A stretch of DNA of 42,253 bases from Rhodoluna limnophila (GTDB lineage Bacteria; Actinomycetota; Actinomycetes; Actinomycetales; Microbacteriaceae). Position 1 is the stretch's first letter; every line of letters starts with the position of its first letter. Of this stretch, positions 6,217 through 41,053 are shown one piece after another. Below the pieces are notes generated by a model. It was not told the origin of the DNA. It ran no database searches and saw only the letters and a list, made by a program, of their open reading frames with translations. The position numbers and the translations under genes are program-made. The stretch covers positions 1 through 42,253 of the forward strand of contig CAMCXL010000002.1 of the NCBI GenBank assembly GCA_945883505.1, read 5' to 3'.

Positions 6217-6887
6217 AAGCGCCTCCGGATCCCGTAAAACCAAAACCCGAGCGCCAAGAACGCCGTTAGTAGTACCGGCACACCGGCCGGTAAAACGATT
6301 GAGAGTGAGGTTGCCAGAAACGCCGAGGCAACAGCCAAGAGCAAAAGCTTGGACTGACTAAGCCTTGGCCAAATTAGGCCCAGAAAGGCAGCCGCGGCCG
6401 CTGCATCAAGACCGAAATCACTTGGATCACCGATTTGAGAACCCAACACTGCGCCAATGAAGGTAAATAAGTTCCAGAAAACAAAAACCGCTATTCCGGT
6501 TAGCCAAAAACCTAAACGCTCTTTCTTCTGATCTGGCTCCTGAGACAAAGACACTGCGTTTGACTCATCAATAGTTAGCTGGGCAGCCAGTGGCCTGATC
6601 AAGGCTGACACCGAAAGAATCGGGTTCATCCGAATGGCATAAAAACCATTTCTTACCCCCAGTAGCCATGCTGAGATTATCGCCGGCACTACCCCAGCCC
6701 CGGTTGCTACAACGCCAATAAATGCAAACTGGCTTCCACCGCTGAACATCAAAAGGCTAAGCGCCATGGTCTGCCAAATATCTAGGCCGGCTGCAACAGA
6801 GAGTGCTCCAAAGGAAATTCCATAGAGACCGGTTGCAACACCAACTCCCACAGACACCGCAGCAACCGATTGGCTCTTATCTTTCAT
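6213..6887 (-). CDS. azlC: AzlC-type branched-chain amino-acid transporter subunit
   Basis: This is the main membrane subunit of the AzlCD (LIV-E) exporter. Family features are GLYGISFGALSVAAGLDIWQ, the SLLMFSGGSQFAFIGVV segment, ISAWLLGVRNGFYAIRMNP and the later FWLTGIAVFVFWNLFTF. Seven or so hydrophobic stretches fill 224 residues, the usual size. The ATG at 6887 lies inside the end of the response-regulator-like gene (11-base overlap) with GGAG eight bases upstream, so translation is coupled. Location right after two signalling-like genes suggests shared control or shared physiology. Confidence 0.9.
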   Translation of the reverse strand: MKDKSQSVAAVSVGVGVATGLYGISFGALSVAAGLDIWQTMALSLLMFSGGSQFAFIGVVATGAGVVPAIISAWLLGVRNGFYAIRMNPILSVSALIRPLAAQLTIDESNAVSLSQEPDQKKERLGFWLTGIAVFVFWNLFTFIGAVLGSQIGDPSDFGLDAAAAAAFLGLIWPRLSQSKLLLLAVASAFLATSLSIVLPAGVPVLLTAFLALGFWFYGIRRRL

Positions 6888-28937: not shown

Positions 28938-28975
28938 AAAAAACACCGAGGCCATTTAGGTCTCGGTGTTTTTTT
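28938..28975. terminator. bidirectional Rho-independent terminator between rpsT and holA
   Basis: AAAAACACCGAGGCC, a short ATTTA loop and GGTCTCGGTGTTTTT form a long stem-loop with T runs on both strands. It lies 11 bases after rpsT. It also covers the last codons and stop of holA on the minus strand, so one structure probably ends both convergent transcripts. Confidence 0.9.
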
Positions 28976-29948
28976 GTCCCCTATTTGAAAGAAGTAGGAC
29001 CAGCTTCTCAAGAGCAAAAACCGGATCTCTTTCCATGCCTTTGACGGCAGCATCGGCGGTGGCAATTGCCATAACGGCGTTAGCTAGTCCCTCCTCGCTC
29101 CACCCGGCAAGATCCTTGCGTGCTCGATCGATCTGCCAAGGCTGGGCGCCGACGTTTGCAGCGCTGGCGTACTTGTTTCCATAAACCTTGGCCATCAGAC
29201 GAACCTTCATGGCAAAAGCAGCCACCACCGGAACTGGGTCGGCGCCGGTTGCAAGCGCGTGCCTCAGAAGCGCTAAAGCTTCCGCGCTTTGCCCGGCGAG
29301 GGCGGCATCGGCGACTTTGAAGGCGTTGGTTTCCACCCTTCCGCCGTAATACTTATCAACCGTTGCCTCATCGATTGACTCTGCCTGATCCGATAGCAGC
29401 TGAGAACAAGCTGCAGCGAGCTCGGATAAGTCATCAGCAAAGGCATCAGCCAAGGCGCGAAGGGCTCCCGGGCTAATTTTCCTTCCGGCCGCTGCAAACT
29501 CAGATTGTATAAAGGCTGCTTTGTCCGATTCTTTTTTGATCTCCGCGCAAGCGATCTCAACCGCGTTATCCGAAGCCCTGATTGCATCAATCAGCTTCTT
29601 TCCCCTAACGCTGGATGAGTTATGCCGAAGAATAATTGTGGTTTCTAAACTCGGTTCCAACAGATAAGAAAGTCCATCTTCAATAAGCGCATCAGTACAT
29701 TTTTCAACGCCGGAGATAACAACCAGTCTTGGCTCCATGAAAAGCGAAGGACTTGCCAAGGTGGTTAGTTGACCGGCTGTGTAATCACCGGCAAGCAGTT
29801 CATGAACTTCAACTCCGGCATCCAAAGCCTTGAGCTGATCGCGAATCGAGCGAATTGCTCGATCAGCTAGATACTCCTCCGGCCCAGAAACGAAAACAAC
29901 CGAAGCTGGCTTCGCATCTCGCCAGCTCACTTGTTTCGCTTTTCCCAC
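28956..29948 (-). CDS. holA: DNA polymerase III delta subunit
   Basis: Delta opens the sliding clamp within the clamp loader. The AAA+-like N-domain lacks a P-loop, as expected, and shows SVVFVSGPEEYLADRAIRSIRDQ and the LASPSLFMEPRLVVISG segment. The C-terminal helical collar domain contains VVAAFAMKVRLMAKVYG. The length of 330 residues is normal. The start is GTG at 29948. It usually follows the competence genes comEA/comEC in actinobacteria; those are absent here. Confidence 0.92.
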   Translation of the reverse strand: MGKAKQVSWRDAKPASVVFVSGPEEYLADRAIRSIRDQLKALDAGVEVHELLAGDYTAGQLTTLASPSLFMEPRLVVISGVEKCTDALIEDGLSYLLEPSLETTIILRHNSSSVRGKKLIDAIRASDNAVEIACAEIKKESDKAAFIQSEFAAAGRKISPGALRALADAFADDLSELAAACSQLLSDQAESIDEATVDKYYGGRVETNAFKVADAALAGQSAEALALLRHALATGADPVPVVAAFAMKVRLMAKVYGNKYASAANVGAQPWQIDRARKDLAGWSEEGLANAVMAIATADAAVKGMERDPVFALEKLVLLLSNRGQKNTET

Positions 29949-30084
29949 GCCCCTAGCCTACTAACCGCCAAGTCCTCTCCTAGTTCTGGACATTAGGACC
30001 ATTTATGATTGTCCGAAGAGTTGGCTACCATAGAGCAAGAACAGAGATCTGTCCTTAATCGCCATCGCACTAAAAGGGGGAAGA

Positions 30085-31500
30085 TTGTCTCAAGTAGACG
30101 TCTCAAAATTTCAGCGTGCTCGTCTAATTCCGGCGACCGACATCAAGGGGTCGCACGATCAAGAGCGAAGGGCTACTAGCGCATTCCTTGCGGTATTGCA
30201 GGGCGTTCCGGAGTTGACCAAGGCGATTCTCAAAGAGTTTGGGGTTCCAGCTGGCGACATTCAGACATTTATAGAACCTGAGTTCAAGCTGGACACGAAG
30301 AAGGTTCGACCTGATGGATTCATTCAGATTACTCGCGGTGGCAAGACTTTTCGGATCATCGTCGAAGTAAAGACGGGAAAGAACGAGTTAGAGCTAACGC
30401 AACTTAATGAATACTTGGATATTGCAAAAATTGAAGGCTTGGACATGCTTCTTACGATTAGCAACCAGGTCTTGGATTCCACTGGCGTTCATCCGACCAA
30501 AGGGATTGATGCAAGAAAACTAAGGTCGACAGCCCTGGTCCATCTTTCGTGGATGCGAATAATCTCTGAGTGCATAATCCTGAGCGAGCACACTGGCGTA
30601 AACGACGCGGATCGATCCTGGATTCTGAAGGAACTCATAAGATTCCTTCAATCTGATGCTTCGGGAGCCTCTGAATTTAACGACATGGGAACCAACTGGG
30701 TTGCAATCCGCGAAGGCGTGCGATCGGGCACAATCAGAAAACCCGATGAAAGTGTTGTAGATGTTGTGACAAAATTTCAGAATCTTGTCAGATATTGCGC
30801 CCTAACTCTAGCGGCCAGATCTGGTGTCGAAGCACAGGAAGTAATTCCCAAGGCAGCGAAAGCAGATGGCCGAAAGTTTTTGCTTGCCGAGGCCGGAGAA
30901 TTGCTGTCTCGAAAGTCGATTAAAGGTGCCCTAAAAATACCTGGTGCGGCTTCGGACCTTGAGATTCTTGCCGACATTGGAACTGGTATGACGCACACAA
31001 GTTTTGACCTAGATGCTCCAAGTGATGGAAAAAACAAATCAAGACTGAATTGGTTGTTGAAGCAGTGGAAGACAGTTCCGGGAGATGCTCTCTTGTCTAT
31101 TGGATACAAGCACAGTCGAACCATGGAAGTGCCTGTAAAGCTCGCGCAGCTTAAGTCCGGCGATTCGGAAATATCTATGGATAATTCGAAGGAAATCGCA
31201 ACTTTTCGAGTTTCTATAGTCCGGAGCTCAGGCGACAAAAGAGGCAGAGGTAAAGGCGCTTTCATCGACTCCGTACTTTCTCAAGTAGAACTTACTTATA
31301 CAGAGCTTCTTCAACCTCTCAAGCCTTGGGTATCTTCAGCCCCCAAACTCTCAGAGACTGTTGTGGACCTTATTCCCAAGCAGGAGAAATCTGACAGCTA
31401 TGCGGACAATCCAGATGGCTCTGAAGAGAGCCAGTCCACGGCGCATAGTAGTTGGGAAGGTACCGCCGAGAAAGTCGAAACTGAAAACCAGCAGTCTTAG
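30085..31500 (+). CDS. lone PD-(D/E)XK nuclease-like protein (actinobacterial 'stress response protein' family)
   Basis: No function is established. Residues about 20-125 carry a nuclease-fold signature: Glu27 in DQERRATSAF, Asp77 in VRPDGFI, Glu94 and Lys96 in IIVEVKTGKN, then Gln106/Tyr110 in TQLNEYLDIA. This QxxxY is like motif IV of RecB, AddB and Cas4 nucleases. The rest (about 150-410) is a conserved domain I cannot assign, and the last 50 residues are polar and low in complexity. From memory the family occurs sporadically across actinobacteria under the label stress response protein. The start is TTG at 30085 with GGGGGA upstream. It sits alone between holA and leuS, the only accessory-looking gene here. 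Confidence 0.75.
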   Translation: MSQVDVSKFQRARLIPATDIKGSHDQERRATSAFLAVLQGVPELTKAILKEFGVPAGDIQTFIEPEFKLDTKKVRPDGFIQITRGGKTFRIIVEVKTGKNELELTQLNEYLDIAKIEGLDMLLTISNQVLDSTGVHPTKGIDARKLRSTALVHLSWMRIISECIILSEHTGVNDADRSWILKELIRFLQSDASGASEFNDMGTNWVAIREGVRSGTIRKPDESVVDVVTKFQNLVRYCALTLAARSGVEAQEVIPKAAKADGRKFLLAEAGELLSRKSIKGALKIPGAASDLEILADIGTGMTHTSFDLDAPSDGKNKSRLNWLLKQWKTVPGDALLSIGYKHSRTMEVPVKLAQLKSGDSEISMDNSKEIATFRVSIVRSSGDKRGRGKGAFIDSVLSQVELTYTELLQPLKPWVSSAPKLSETVVDLIPKQEKSDSYADNPDGSEESQSTAHSSWEGTAEKVETENQQS

Positions 31501-31631
31501 CATTTCGGTTTCGCTGGTAGATCAAAGCACTCAGTCAAGTCACTCTTGCAGGGGCGGCACATCCAAACCCAATTAGCGCTTAGCCGGTAGCTGGATAGGC
31601 CACTCTCGGATTTACACGAAAAGCACCTCAT
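31497..31631 (-). CDS. zinc-ribbon micro-protein (44 residues)
   Basis: This open reading frame starts at ATG 31631 and encodes a protein with two zinc knuckles: CFSC at residues 3-6 and CRPC at 25-28, separated by 18 residues. Further cysteines are at 35 and 44. The spacing is that of a zinc ribbon. It lies 59 bases after leuS on the same strand. An extended -10-like TGTGTATAAG (TATAAG at 31674-31669) lies between them. Its stop TAA overlaps the TAG of the nuclease-like gene in a shared TTAG. No ribosome site is obvious. It could be a small RNA- or DNA-binding protein; function is unknown. Confidence 0.6.
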   Translation of the reverse strand: MRCFSCKSESGLSSYRLSANWVWMCRPCKSDLTECFDLPAKPKC

Positions 31632-31690
31632 CGCACTAGCTTAGAAAATCTCTGGTTTAGCTCTCTGACTTATACACAGGCCACTGAGAA

Positions 31691-34165
31691 CTAGGCGGTT
31701 GCGATATTAACAAGCTTTGGAGCACGAACGATAACGTTCTTGATTTTCTTGCCCTCAAGCACTTTCTTGACATTTTCAGAAGCCATCGCAAGAGCCTCAA
31801 GCTCCGATTCTGAAATCGAGGATGAAACTTCAAACTTGTCACGAAGCTTGCCATCAACCTGAACTACCGCAGTGAGGCTATCTCTGATCAGAAGCTCTGG
31901 AATAGCGTCTGAAAAACCAGCCAGGGCAACTGCTGGTTCATGTCCAAGTAACTGCCACATATCCTCCGCGGTGTATGGCGCAAATAGACTCAACGCCTTG
32001 GCAACAGCCTCAGCCGCCTCTCGAACAGCAGGGTCTGACCCGCCAGCTTTTCCATCGATGGCCTTACGCAGGGCGTTTACTAGCTCCATGATCTTGGCTA
32101 CGCCGACGTTGAACTTGAAAGACTCAATCTGTTCAGGAAATTCCTTCAAGAACAAATGGGTTGCCCTTCTAAGTTCATGATCACCGGTTGCAAAATCAAT
32201 CCCCGGGGCACTTGTAACTTCGTTCGCGCATCGCCAAGCCCTGGCCAAAAACTTTGCGCTTGCTGCAGGCGAAACATCCGCCCAGTCGATGTCATCCTCG
32301 GGAGGGCCGGCAAAGGCCATTGTCAATCGAACCGCATCAACACCATGCTCATCCAATTGCTCAGATAATCTGACCAGGTTGCCGCGCGATTTACTCATCG
32401 CCGAGCCATTCATCAGAACCATTCCCTGGTTCAACAGTCTGGTGAAGGGCTCTTCGAATTCAACGTATCCCAAATCGTGCAGCACCTTGGTGAAAAAGCG
32501 TGCATAGAGAAGGTGCAAGATGGCGTGAGTCACTCCACCCACATACTGATCTACAGGAGCCCACTTCTTAGCTTCCTCTTTTGGAAAAGCTTCGGTTTCT
32601 GAATTTGGAGATAGAAACCTCAGGAAATACCAAGAGGAGTCCACAAAGGTATCCATGGTGTCGGTATCGCGCTTGGCAGCTCCGCCACAGCTAGGGCAAG
32701 AGACATTCACCCAGTCGGTGGCTCCCCCCAAAGGAGAGGTTCCCTTCGGTGACAGGTCCAAGCCTTTAGCGTCAGGAAGTCGAATTGGAAGTTCACTAAC
32801 CGGCACCGGAACCTCGCCACAGGTTTCGCAGTGCACGATTGGGATTGGAGTTCCCCAATAGCGCTGACGGGAAATCAACCAGTCACGAAGCCTAAAGTTC
32901 TTTGCTTTTTTGCCAAGGCCTTTAGCCGCAAGTACTTCAGTGATCTTTTTGATAGCTTCGGTCTTCTTGAGACCGTTGAGTTCACCAGAGTTCACCAAAA
33001 CTCCGTCACCGGTAGTTGCAACACCCGAAACCGAAGGATCGTCTTCACCGGTGTCAACAACAAGTTGCACCGGAAGATTGTTTTGGCGTGCGAAGTCAAG
33101 GTCGCGCTGATCGTGAGCAGGAACGGCCATGATGGCACCGGTTCCATAATCTGCCAACACGTAGTCAGCAGCCCAGATCGGAAGCTTCTCACCGTTAACT
33201 GGATTTATCGCAAAGCGACCTAGGTCAATACCGCGCTTCGGGCGATCGGTAGCAAGACGATCAATATCATTGGTCTTTTTGGTCTCTTCCAAAAAGTCCT
33301 GGAACTTCATTCTCACCTCACTAGCCGCCTCTGAAGCTAGCTCCGCCGCTAAGTCTGAGTCGGCAGCCACAACCATAAATGTTGCCCCGAACAAAGTGTC
33401 TGGGCGTGTTGTGTAAACCTGAATTGGGTCTTTTCTTCCCTCTATTTCAAACTTCACTTCTGCACCATAGGATCTTCCGATCCAGTTACGCTGCATGGAT
33501 AGAACCTTGGCAGGCCAAGCACCCTCGAGGGTGTCAAGGTCATCGAGCAACCTGTCGGCGTAGTCGGTGACCTTGAAGTACCACTGGGTTAGAGCTTTTT
33601 TGGTAACCGCTGTGTCACATCTTTCACAAAGACCCTGAACAACCTGCTCGTTGGCAAGGACCGTTTGACAGGAAGGGCACCAGTTAACGTTTGAGTTCTT
33701 GCGATAGGCAAGACCCTTGTTGTAAAACTCCAGGAACAACCACTGGTTCCACTGGTAGTACTCGGGGTCAGAAGTAATAAGTACCCGGTCCCAGTCAAAG
33801 CTGCAGGCGTAGCGCCTCATGGAAGCTTTTTGCTGGGCGATGTTGTCGTAGGTCCAACCTCTTGGGTCTAGACCTCGCTTGATTGCAGCGTTCTCGGCTG
33901 GAAGACCGAAGGAGTCCCAACCAATCGGGTGCATAACGTTAAAGCCTTTTTGGACCCAGTACCTGGCGATGACATCGCCGAGCGCATAGGCCTCGGCGTG
34001 ACCCATGTGAAGATCGCCCGAGGGATAGGGGAACATATCCAGCACATACTTCTTTGGCCTTTTATCTTCTGGCTTTCCAGAGTCGAAGGGCTTTAGCTCA
34101 TCCCATACCGCAAGCCACTTCTCGCTCAACGCCTTAGCGTCAAACTGAACTGGCTCGTTGGACAA
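31691..34165 (-). CDS. leuS: leucyl-tRNA synthetase
   Basis: This class I enzyme charges tRNA-Leu. The HIGH-type motif is [12 protein letters not shown] and the KMSKS-type motif reads AMSKS ([11 protein letters not shown]), a tolerated first-position variant. The editing domain contains [16 protein letters not shown] and [19 protein letters not shown]. Zinc-like cysteine pairs occur at CPSCQ/CERC and at CETC/CPSCGG. The length of 824 residues is normal. No leader peptide or T-box is visible in the 65-base gap upstream. Confidence 0.98.
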
Positions 34166-37411: not shown

Positions 37412-37467
37412 CTGGCATTTGAGGCGGATTTCGCTTTGTCGGTCGATACCCATACACTAATCATTGT

Positions 37468-37483
37468 TCGAACACTTGTTCGA
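37468..37483. promoter_or_regulatory. LexA-binding site (SOS box)
   Basis: TCGAAC-ACTT-GTTCGA is an exact match to the actinobacterial SOS-box form TCGAAC-N4-GTTCGA. It lies 28 bases before the ATG of the DUF6504 gene, within the expected promoter. Flanking bases extend the pattern, giving GTTCGAAC at both 37466 and 37478. LexA control of DUF6504-dnaE2 is therefore strongly indicated. Confidence 0.93.
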
Positions 37484-37511
37484 ACAACTAGCCGTTTTAT
37501 GGGGAAGATTC

Positions 37512-37802
37512 ATGATCCAAGTCGACGAGACAGTCAAGGTACTAACCAACCAATCCGGAGAACCGGTTCGCTTCAGCTGGCGAAATGGCAGCTATCAGGT
37601 CACTTCGCGCCCCGAGCGCTGGTACTCCAGAAAGCCCTGGTGGTTAGAAGCTAGCCGCGCCCAGCGCGGCATTGGGGCCCAGGTTCTAGAAGTTGAGATG
37701 TGGCGAATAACTGCCAGCAAGGGAATCAACTCCCCCAATCAATTTGAGCTAGTTCATAGCCAAGCAGATGACGGTTGGCAATTGGTTCGAATCTTTGGCT
37801 AA
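37512..37802 (+). CDS. DUF6504 family protein (mutasome-associated)
   Basis: This small protein of 96 residues is typically encoded between imuB and dnaE2 in actinobacteria. It is rich in Trp and Arg (RFSWRNGSYQVTSRPERWYSRKPWW-type core, split over residues 20-45) and may form a small beta barrel. The ATG at 37512 follows GGGGAAG by four bases; the TTG at 37464 lies inside the SOS box and is rejected. DnaE2 starts two bases after its stop. A role in damage-induced DNA synthesis is inferred from context only. Confidence 0.82.
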   Translation: MIQVDETVKVLTNQSGEPVRFSWRNGSYQVTSRPERWYSRKPWWLEASRAQRGIGAQVLEVEMWRITASKGINSPNQFELVHSQADDGWQLVRIFG

Positions 37803-37804
37803 GC

Positions 37805-40800
37805 ATGTCCTTCACACACCTAAACGTCTCCTCGGCTTACTCATTCCATTTTGGAACCGCTAAGCCCGATCAGCTTGCCCAGGCTGCCGCGAGCTTTAGT
37901 CAAGACGCTCTAGCAATTACCGACGATAACGGTCTCTATGGAGCCGTGAAACATATCGGTGCCTGCCTGGATCAAAACATCGCTCCAATAGTCGGTGTTC
38001 GACTAAAGGTTGAAAATCGCGGGACAGTGACAATTTTTAGCCGAGGACACAACAAAGGAATCGGCTGGGCGGCGCTGTGCAAAATAGTTTCCAAAGCTCA
38101 AACTAGAGCTCAGGGTAAAACTAAAAAAGAAATAGCTATCTCAGAAAAAGACTTGAGCGAACTAGTTGTGTTGGATGGTAAACCGACCTGCACCATTTTG
38201 CTTGGACCAGAATCTGATATTGGCCAAGCGGTTATAAAGGCAAACGCTACCGTTGCCGCCAGAAAACTTCTGGACTGGAAAGAACTAATTCCGGTTAGTG
38301 AATGCTTGAGCGTAGAAATTGTTTCTCACCTAACCGAACCGGGATCAAGCTACTCAACCCTGCAGGCTAAAAGAATGCTGCAGCTGGCGCTAACTGCAGG
38401 ACTAAAACCAGTGCTGACAAATGCAGTTCGTTATCTAGAGCCCGACGATGCACTAACCGGAGATGTGTTAGATGCCGCTAGGCACCTAGAACCACTTGGT
38501 ATCTTTACCCCCCAAGCCAATGCCCAAGCTTGGCTAAAGCCCGAAGCGTTGATGAAAAAGCTAGCTCTTGAAATTACTCAGAGCCAGGAATTAGCCACCA
38601 AGCTCCTAAAAAATACCGAGGAGCTAGCCAATGCCCTGAGGCTTGACCCAGTTAGCGACTGCGACTGGTCAAGGCCTAAAACCCCTGAGAAATCAGCTCT
38701 TGGCATTGAAGGAAACCCTTTCGAAGTGCTCTGGCAAAAAGCTCACTCGGGGATTAACTGGCGCTACCCAAACTACTCTGAAGACAAACTGCTTCCGGTT
38801 AGGCACCGGCTGCACCAAGAGCTCATAACCATCAACAAGCTGGGCTTTGCAACTTACTTTCTAACCGTTGCCGATGTTGCGCAGATGATTCGGGATATGA
38901 GGATTAGAACCGCAGCTCGTGGCTCTGGGGCTGGTTCACTAACCAATTACCTGTTAGGGATAAGCGGAGTTGACCCAATCGAACACGATTTACTGTTTGA
39001 GAGATTTCTAAGCACCGAGCGCTCCAGCCTTCCAGATATCGATATAGATGTTGAATCGGCCAGGAGGCACGATATCTATCGGGCAATTTTCAAGCGCTAC
39101 GGTGGCAACCGGGTCACTCTACTTTCAATGCAGTCCACCTACCGAGGCCGAGGTGCGGTTCGAGACGGAGGGCTAGCCCTTGGCTTTGAAGAAGATCAAA
39201 TTGATGAGATAGCAAAGAGTATCTGGCGCTTTAGCGCAAGAAACTTTCGAGGCATGCTGAGTAAAAAACCAGAACTTGAAAAACTAGCCCAGCTGGTCGA
39301 GCACGACCGAAGACTGAACCTGCTGGTTGATATAACCGAGCGGCTAGACCGGCTACCTAGGCACATATCGATGCACCCCTGTGGTGTGATCTTGGGAAAC
39401 CAGGACCTACTCTCGCTTACCCCGGTTGAGCCAAGTGGTCTCGGGCTTCCGATGAGTCAGTTCGATAAGGACGATATGGACCCGATGGGAATGCTCAAGC
39501 TGGATATCCTCGGGGTTCGAATGCAATCCAGCATGGCCTATGCGATTAGGGAAATTGAGCGAGTCTCGGGAAAAACTATTGACCTTGATGCCATTTCTCG
39601 CGACGACAAAGAAACTTTCAGGCAGATTAGAACTACCAATACCCTCGGTGTCTTTCAGATTGAAAGCCCGGGCCAAAGAGAGCTAACCGGCAAGCACCAG
39701 CCAACCGAGTTCAACGACCTAACTATTCAGATTTCACTGTTTCGTCCGGGGCCCATGAAGGGCAACATGATTGCCCCCTATTTGGATGGTCGTCACGGGT
39801 TTGTGAAGCCAGATCTTATTCACCCCGACCTTGCTCCTATTTTGAAATCTACCCAGGGCGTTGTTATTTTCCACGAACAGGTGCTAAAAATCTTGAACGT
39901 GATGACCGGTTGCTCACTCGCCAAAGCCGATGAGCTTCGACGAACTCTCGAGAAAGACCAAAAATTCGTTGAGAAGTTCTTTCGGCAAAACGCCACCAAG
40001 CGCGGATACTCAAAGGCTGTTGTGGATCGAATCTGGAGTGTGCTAGAGGGATTTGGAAGCTTTGGGTTCTGCAAGGCCCACGGTGCAGCTTTTGCCCTTC
40101 CGACCTACCAAAGTGCCTGGCTAAAAACCCACTACCCCACTGAGTTTTTGGCAGGGCTATTTACCCATGACCCTGGGATGTATCCAAAGCGATTGCTGTT
40201 GTCCGAGGCCAGAAGACTCGGGGTCAAGATACTGCCGCTTGATGTCAATAAATCAAAAGATGAATACCTGGTTGAAAAAACTGCCGATGGCCTAGCAATC
40301 CGAATGGCAATAACTGATCTGCACGGCATCTCTAACTCTGAGATAACAAGAATCATCAAGCAGGCGCCTTTTGCCGACCTGGCCGATTTTTACCTAAGGG
40401 CTTGCCCTTCTCGAGCCACCATCAAACGTTTAGCTTTAGTTGGAGCACTCGATGAATTAGCCGGCGGCTCAACTGATCACACCAGAGGGGATATTCTGGA
40501 GCGAGTTAGGCAACTAACAGCCCTAAAATCCAAACCAAAACTGGACGAGAATCAGCCGATGCTGGATTTTGAAGCCAAAGAGCAAATGCCCTCGGGGTTT
40601 GCTGCTATTTCAACAGCCGGTCAGATTCAAGCCGAGCTTGATCTACTTGGCATGGACATCACCGACCATCAGCTGGCTAAGTATCAGCCGATGCTGGATC
40701 AGATGGGTGTTGTTAGGTCCAGTGAGTTAGTTGGCTTGAGATCTAAAACCGAGGTTCTAATTGCAGGGGTTAGGGTTGCAACCCAGAGCCCTCCGATGCG

Positions 40801-41053
40801 ATCTGGTAAGCGGGTTGTTTTCATTACCCTCGACGATGGCTCGGGGTGCAGTGATGCGACTTTCTTCGATGAAGCTCAGTCCCGATCCAGCGGGGTGCTG
40901 TTCAACACCAAGTTACTTTTGATTTCGGGTAAGACTAGGCGAACCGGTGTTAAGGGTGTTTCGATAATGGCCGAAAACGCCTGGGACCTAAGCCAGCTCT
41001 GGCAAGATTATCGCCAGAAAAATCAACTAGTCGCGGTTGAAAATCGAAAGTAG
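37805..41053 (+). CDS. dnaE2: error-prone DNA polymerase III alpha, DnaE2 type
   Basis: This C-family polymerase performs translesion synthesis after DNA damage. The N-terminal PHP domain is degenerate (HLNVSSAYS instead of HLHVHSxYS), so proofreading by it is unlikely. The palm has PDIDIDVE (catalytic aspartates) in SSLPDIDIDVESARRHDIY. The C-end has the OB fold with VLIAGVRVATQSPPMRSGKR and LDDGSGCSDATFFDE, the DnaE2 form. QPMLDF at residues 917-922 matches the beta-clamp consensus QxxLxF. The ATG at 37805 gives 1082 residues. The SOS box upstream supports DnaE2 over the replicative DnaE1. No imuB lies next to it. Confidence 0.92.
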   Translation: MSFTHLNVSSAYSFHFGTAKPDQLAQAAASFSQDALAITDDNGLYGAVKHIGACLDQNIAPIVGVRLKVENRGTVTIFSRGHNKGIGWAALCKIVSKAQTRAQGKTKKEIAISEKDLSELVVLDGKPTCTILLGPESDIGQAVIKANATVAARKLLDWKELIPVSECLSVEIVSHLTEPGSSYSTLQAKRMLQLALTAGLKPVLTNAVRYLEPDDALTGDVLDAARHLEPLGIFTPQANAQAWLKPEALMKKLALEITQSQELATKLLKNTEELANALRLDPVSDCDWSRPKTPEKSALGIEGNPFEVLWQKAHSGINWRYPNYSEDKLLPVRHRLHQELITINKLGFATYFLTVADVAQMIRDMRIRTAARGSGAGSLTNYLLGISGVDPIEHDLLFERFLSTERSSLPDIDIDVESARRHDIYRAIFKRYGGNRVTLLSMQSTYRGRGAVRDGGLALGFEEDQIDEIAKSIWRFSARNFRGMLSKKPELEKLAQLVEHDRRLNLLVDITERLDRLPRHISMHPCGVILGNQDLLSLTPVEPSGLGLPMSQFDKDDMDPMGMLKLDILGVRMQSSMAYAIREIERVSGKTIDLDAISRDDKETFRQIRTTNTLGVFQIESPGQRELTGKHQPTEFNDLTIQISLFRPGPMKGNMIAPYLDGRHGFVKPDLIHPDLAPILKSTQGVVIFHEQVLKILNVMTGCSLAKADELRRTLEKDQKFVEKFFRQNATKRGYSKAVVDRIWSVLEGFGSFGFCKAHGAAFALPTYQSAWLKTHYPTEFLAGLFTHDPGMYPKRLLLSEARRLGVKILPLDVNKSKDEYLVEKTADGLAIRMAITDLHGISNSEITRIIKQAPFADLADFYLRACPSRATIKRLALVGALDELAGGSTDHTRGDILERVRQLTALKSKPKLDENQPMLDFEAKEQMPSGFAAISTAGQIQAELDLLGMDITDHQLAKYQPMLDQMGVVRSSELVGLRSKTEVLIAGVRVATQSPPMRSGKRVVFITLDDGSGCSDATFFDEAQSRSSGVLFNTKLLLISGKTRRTGVKGVSIMAENAWDLSQLWQDYRQKNQLVAVENRK

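Follow-up and report, generated by a model that had tools for sequence, protein, structure and literature searches.

Relation to described nucleases

Among the described systems closest to the locus considered here, Card1, Can2 and Cdn1 are PD-(D/E)XK nucleases fused to a CARF domain, which in Card1 and Can2 lies N-terminal to the nuclease. Cas4, AddB and RecB have a Q-xxx-Y motif after the E-x-K motif, and Cas4 and AddB carry a four-cysteine iron–sulfur cluster. YbjN, AmyR and Spa15, the TY-chaperones, are separate small proteins. The locus is a stand-alone gene (Table 1) in a 42,253-nucleotide stretch of Rhodoluna limnophila DNA (assembly GCA_945883505.1, contig CAMCXL010000002.1); this whole stretch is called the window below. 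The open reading frame (ORF) is as a first-pass annotation of the window had described it, in position, length and TTG start. Its product joins a predicted PD-(D/E)XK nuclease domain to a C-terminal domain with a likely YbjN-like fold, here in fused form. Sequence comparison indicates that the gene belongs to a genuine family of single-gene nucleases, so far without a name, that is patchily distributed across the actinobacteria; we regard this family as a new combination of known parts.

Card1 and VC1899 are among the leading structure matches of the window protein, but its architecture is the reverse of that of Card1 and Can2. The nuclease part starts at residue ~13, so that with ~12 residues before it nothing domain-sized, and thus no CARF domain, precedes it, and the domain that follows is YbjN-like. 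The Q-xxx-Y motif is common to Cas4, AddB, RecB and the family, with Q106 and Y110 present in 106/106 sequences. Because the window protein holds only two cysteines in all, Cys163 and Cys238, it cannot carry a four-cysteine cluster. The list of structure matches is led by other proteins, and of the earlier label "RecB/Cas4-type" only the motif survives. AF1548 (1y88), a functionally uncharacterised protein of 184 residues, is too short to account for the 236-residue C-terminal part. TerD stress proteins and Ter-linked systems are represented by an N-terminal TerD domain in a sister clade of the family, whereas the window protein lacks this domain and the genome gives no TerD match.

Sequence searches with the window protein matched no family in Pfam or NCBIfam. 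None of the known anti-phage systems in PADLOC 2.0 matched convincingly, the sole best match being a CARF model at E 0.043. PHROGs gave three matches only (E 0.03–0.25), and a Holliday junction resolvase is among these. Nothing convincing was found among the PDB sequences (a NosL chain at E 0.86), and a profile of 82 members matched no PDB chain. The nuclease family is described nowhere in the literature that was searched, although an earlier description may exist, and no paper joining TerD with YbjN was found there.

Nuclease domain and active site

The predicted structure of the window protein contains the PD-(D/E)XK core fold. In a structure search with this model, AF1548, Card1, VC1899, FokI and similar chains come first. 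Eight residues, E27, E64, P76, D77, E94, K96, Q106 and Y110, are identical in 88/88 sequences and again in 106/106 of a wider set that includes TerD-fused forms. The first-pass annotation had built its nuclease site from Glu27, Asp77, Glu94-x-Lys96 and Gln106xxxTyr110; these residues are found where it had placed them, and both the fold and the conservation on which it had made its claim depend are present. The invariance is in part a result of selection. The collection scan required an E-x-K-T pattern and the extraction of 18 later loci required a PD...E-x-K expression, so that E94 and K96, and for the later loci also P76-D77, are conserved partly because the patterns demanded them. In the alignments, independent evidence of conservation is carried by E27, E64, Q106 and Y110 across all sequences and by P76-D77 in the first 88. 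Four loci were dropped by the PD...E-x-K expression; L136, L137 and L146 retain the residues and L147 ends before them.

Matches below the Pfam threshold among the 82 members fall mostly on models of the same nuclease superfamily, namely VRR_NUC (15 members), Tox-REase-7 (8), TnsA_N (6) and HSDR_N_2 (1). The non-nuclease models touched are PhnG (two members) and DUF2510, RMMBL and Gp80 (one each). From the computed fold and site, we take residues ~13–187 to form a metal-dependent PD-(D/E)XK nuclease that would cleave DNA.

C-terminal domain and tail

For the C-terminal part, which the first-pass annotation had described as a large domain of unknown role, structure comparison now gives a likely YbjN/type III chaperone-like fold with moderate support. 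No Pfam model and no NCBIfam family of the YbjN/TY-chaperone kind was matched by any of the 82 members; one member touches HrpB2 at E 0.045. A passage of the paper on DR1245 describes that protein as YbjN-like (PMC3575483). Judging from the modelled fold, the domain probably binds a protein or peptide.

Past residue ~430 the model is disordered, and its predicted local distance difference test score (pLDDT) drops from 74 to 46–48. Of 81 scan-derived members, 72 have an SSQD motif among their final 80 residues, versus 43 of 16,200 shuffled tails; the 72 occurrences are not independent events because the members share ancestry. The motif is missing in 18 further loci checked (the TerD-fused ones among them; L141 is a piece) and in L010, the nearest relative. 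In the disordered family tails, for example at the C-terminus of L024, SSQD is possibly a peptide ligand or a phosphorylation site.

Table 1. Features of the nuclease gene and its surroundings, in positions of the window.
Feature	Position	Strand	Basis
Stand-alone nuclease gene, 471 amino acids, TTG start	30085..31500	+	Constrained codon positions; relatives encoded by 532 matching stretches
PD-(D/E)XK nuclease domain, residues ~13–187	30121..30645	+	Predicted fold
Active-site set E27, E64, P76-D77, E94-x-K96, Q106-xxx-Y110	30163..30414	+	Invariant in 106/106 aligned sequences
Likely YbjN/type III chaperone-like domain, residues ~226–417	30760..31335	+	
Disordered C-terminal tail with SSWEG, degenerate form of the family SSQD motif	31360..31497	+	pLDDT and motif count
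13-bp footprint, identical to last codon and stop of comEC and following 7 bases in relative L117	29954..29966	-	Alignment resumes at L117 6730, comEC end at 6735; single occurrence in window
Flanking gene read as holA (DNA polymerase III delta)	28956..29948	-	L117: 90% identical protein adjoining comEC
Flanking gene read as leuS	31691..34165	-	Last 269 residues match in 60/67 same-genus genomes including own; 3/60 weak

Distribution of the family

One genome per species was scanned with profile A2. The pattern matched 565 times. A relative is encoded at 532 of these matches, and the best 80 were kept; 532 is a lower bound since one pattern only was used. Most of the best 80 relatives bear actinobacterial names and one is labelled Acidobacteriaceae. 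Counted by genome and with the window's own genome included, a member is present in 5 of 149 related genomes and in 25 of 396 genomes of the phylum, where G228 and G426 contribute weak fragments. Within the genus, the own genome is the only one of 67 with a member. Among 72,556 plasmid records there are 11 with a member, all from Streptomyces or Rhodococcus, and among 50,697 phage records there is none. In viral contigs the profile finds one relative, and the window protein alone as query finds none. L010, on an Aquiluna contig from a metagenome-assembled genome, is 53% identical in the scan and 51% over 442 codons, and its neighbours differ from those in the window. Codon positions one, two and three differ from L010 by 43, 30 and 69%, so the nuclease gene behaves as a constrained protein. 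Broken copies are found in two relatives, as two frames in G075 (L005/L006) and with one in-frame TAG in G375 (L141), and we conclude that the gene can be lost.

A TerD domain stands N-terminal to the nuclease in P0002–P0004, from Rhodococcus and Streptomyces plasmids, and in L004, from a genome of the window's order (E 1.8e-42 to 1.1e-49). Seven further loci were called TerD by a short expression alone. In a quick tree of 105 rows, the 11 TerD members group with L128, which the short expression had missed, in a single 12-member clade (support 98). A passage in PMC7159879 suggests that TerD recognises nucleotide derivatives, and another in PMC3710099 refers to an anti-phage system that depends on TerD. 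On the Rhodococcus plasmids (three read of five matches) the TerD-fused gene lies near ThiF/Mov34, SIR2 or RES genes. On two of them (L151 4700–9281 and L152 4647–9278), the TerD-nuclease gene is preceded by two hypothetical genes, which measure 1101 and 1242 bp on both plasmids; this is likely an operon. None of the Streptomyces plasmids (four read of six) has ThiF/Mov34, SIR2 or RES. All but one look ordinary; on L153 (10455–15088), genes for Trypco1 and a trypsin-like peptidase lie 1.2 kb downstream of the TerD-nuclease gene. Trypco1 occurs in conflict systems.

Neighbouring genes

Blast clustering of flanking ORFs revealed no constant partner gene apart from shadow frames of the nuclease gene. 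The largest non-shadow cluster comprises 13 of 82 sources, with two members within 1.5 kb, among the up to 60 clusters listed. The four neighbour orientations are near equal (21, 20, 18 and 17 of 76), which means that the gene stands alone, in agreement with the earlier description of a lone gene. Of 157 nearest neighbours called in 81 loci, 145 were scanned. Among the first 25 of 114 Pfam families these include seven kinases, four NERD, three integrases, two AAA_21 and one N6-methyltransferase, and among the first 25 of 117 PADLOC entries the models PD-T4-6, mad6 and kinase lead with seven members each. In this comparison, made without a control set, no defence-island enrichment was demonstrated for the 145 neighbours. 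In seven Lentzea/Umezawaea loci (including L037 6188–8308, L053 6943–8883, L079 and L083) a same-strand gene lies upstream, at ~0.1 kb in Lentzea and 0.5–0.7 kb in Umezawaea. It encodes a Ser/Thr kinase in all four such loci that were scanned, and nuclease and kinase genes are a possible two-gene unit in this clade.

In the window, the nuclease gene lies on the strand opposite to both neighbours, which we take to be holA and leuS; these names, and that of comEA in the relatives, are presumed from sequence. It is divergent from its upstream gene with 136 bp between them, and a GGGGG run lies 4 nt 5' of the TTG start. A sigma-70 consensus scan of 29900–31800 gave 0 sites versus 1.7 expected. The gap that the first-pass annotation had seen as promoter space is thus there, but no sigma-70 site was found in it.

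The comEC site

At six loci fetched from the same genus, leuS and holA are ~2.6–3.0 kb apart and ComEC lies inside in 6/6. Unlike the presumed names, ComEC is identified by a match to Pfam PF03772. In L117 and L118, the two loci with ORFs listed, comEA stands ahead of ComEC. Fifty genomes of the genus have a good leuS match together with ComEC; in 47 of them ComEC follows 0.9–1.4 kb downstream, on the strand of the leuS match, and in the other three the two are on separate contigs. The leuS–holA interval of the window (29949–31690) measures 1742 bp; where relatives have the comEC region, it contains the nuclease gene, a correspondence that the first-pass annotation had no means of seeing. A DNA alignment with L117 reaches within eight bases of the leuS end and restarts six bases inside the comEC end, at the footprint listed in Table 1.

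Neither comEA nor comEC gives a tblastn match in the window, and PF03772 is not found in the own genome, which is 98% complete. It is present in 55 of 67 genus genomes and in 20 of the 22 near-complete ones. In G020, the other near-complete genome without PF03772, the contig stops at leuS; the contig of G056 also stops near the site, and its ComEC sits on another contig. Besides the own genome, six genus genomes with a good leuS match give no ComEC match. In G049 (L155, C23), which has no ComEC match, the bases between leuS and holA are masked, so that ComEC loss there may be an assembly gap.

Rhodoluna and Aurantimicrobium, freshwater Microbacteriaceae, are described as naturally transformable in a passage of PMC11577799. 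Because the comEC region is missing and the 98%-complete genome gives no ComEC match, its sequence suggests that the organism has probably lost DNA uptake via the ComEC route. The comEC loss may have come before the insertion or together with it. A wholesale loss of competence genes is not seen, as the genome retains DprA together with two T2SSE ATPases that score over the cut-off. Systematic replacement of comEC by the family was also considered and rejected. The check covered the own genome and 26 of the 28 other family-bearing genomes, with the fragments G228 and G426 left out, and these other 26/26 keep ComEC, so the swap is a local event and not a habit of the family. Queries with leuS, holA, comEA and comEC gave no match in loci L002–L090 at E 1e-15.

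Possible functions

The reading that we consider most likely, with about an even chance of being right, is that of a metal-dependent nuclease controlled by protein binding, which acts as a one-gene conflict or stress effector. The C-terminal domain would recognise a protein partner from an invader or from the stressed host, this recognition would localise or release the nuclease, and the nuclease would cut DNA. In one clade the TerD domain would add a further input. In the lineage of the window the gene came to occupy the site of the comEC region, on the strand opposite to its flanks. This reading is based on the two folds, the invariant site, the Pfam matches to nuclease families and the patchy presence (1/67, 25/396 and 11/72,556), together with the TerD fusion, the plasmid neighbours (ThiF/Mov34, SIR2, RES, Trypco1 and peptidase) and the Lentzea/Umezawaea kinase. 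A published prediction, contained in a passage of PMC9503650, assigns YbjN-like "TY-chaperones" to the same set of conflict systems as restriction endonuclease (REase) effectors. The protein may have a role in defence against foreign DNA. As in the first-pass annotation, defence is still a hypothesis here: the best PADLOC match is weak and a consistent defence neighbourhood was not seen.

A role as a host nuclease of DNA repair or DNA processing is considerably less probable. In this case a repair protein would be the partner of the YbjN-like domain, and damaged DNA would be trimmed by the nuclease. Members group by genus in the quick tree and the gene stands alone without constant defence neighbours, as this explanation would have it. 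A precedent is found in a passage of PMC3575483, according to which the YbjN-like DR1245 binds the SSB-like DdrB in Deinococcus; the same source reports, however, that loss of DR1245 slows growth and leaves radioresistance unaffected. Patchy presence and plasmid copies are unusual for a repair gene, and all but one of the 67 same-genus genomes lack a match; of these 66, 21 are near-complete.

Less probable still, and rather unlikely, is a selfish or accessory cassette. An insertion, or a prior loss, would have removed comEC and its companion, the cassette would gain since transformation can no longer restore the empty site, and its nuclease would be a further obstacle to foreign DNA. The exchange at the comEC site, the status of the own genome as the only one without ComEC among the 27 checked and the retention of DprA and the ATPases are consistent with this. 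A conflict between mobile elements and transformation has been published, and comEC is broken by transposable elements in another bacterium, according to passages in PMC4774983, PMC11472951, PMC12637031 and PMC12955456. No long repeat is found at the two joins, however, in an interval in which short mobile elements were not searched. Repeat pairs are weak only; a single pair is inverted (17 nt, 82%), and its arms, at 30007 and 31395, lie inside the joins. Members elsewhere are not beside leuS, holA, comEA or comEC and coexist with ComEC. Eleven other genus genomes, mostly incomplete, are also without a ComEC match, so that loss first and insertion later fits equally well.

It is an improbable though wider-reaching idea that the members form a large actinobacterial family of one-gene sensor-effectors. 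A type III chaperone-like groove would sense a protein signal and control the fused nuclease, the tail motif would be the groove ligand in most core-only members, and the cassette would here have replaced the gene of the DNA-uptake channel and thereby escaped cure by transformation.

An assembly error that wrongly joined a foreign nuclease gene between leuS and holA is very unlikely, for although the draft genome comes in 11 contigs and G049 shows masked bases in the same interval, there is no N run at the join, the alignment covers leuS except for at most its last eight bases, the 13 bp from the end of comEC are preserved, the G+C content is near that of the window (47.9 versus 50.8%) and a 53%-identical protein exists in the Aquiluna contig. 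Our ranking places the defence or stress effector first, followed by DNA repair, the transformation-abolishing cassette and assembly error. Computation supports the gene, its family, the invariant residues, the nuclease fold, the YbjN-like fold (moderately), the TerD-fused clade and the comEC swap; cleavage, DNA as the target, partner binding and the role are inferred.

With 532 matching stretches, an invariant site and a newly assigned C-terminal fold, the family would offer a further actinobacterial nuclease type for the study of phage, plasmid or transformation barriers. Through the comEC-for-nuclease swap, freshwater Microbacteriaceae would become a group in which a conflict of transformation with accessory genes can be tested.

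Elsewhere in the window, at 37464–41053, two genes overlap, one of the DUF6504 family and one for a DNA polymerase III alpha-type protein of 1092 amino acids, which we presume to be DnaE2-like; the two are a possible mutagenic-repair pair.
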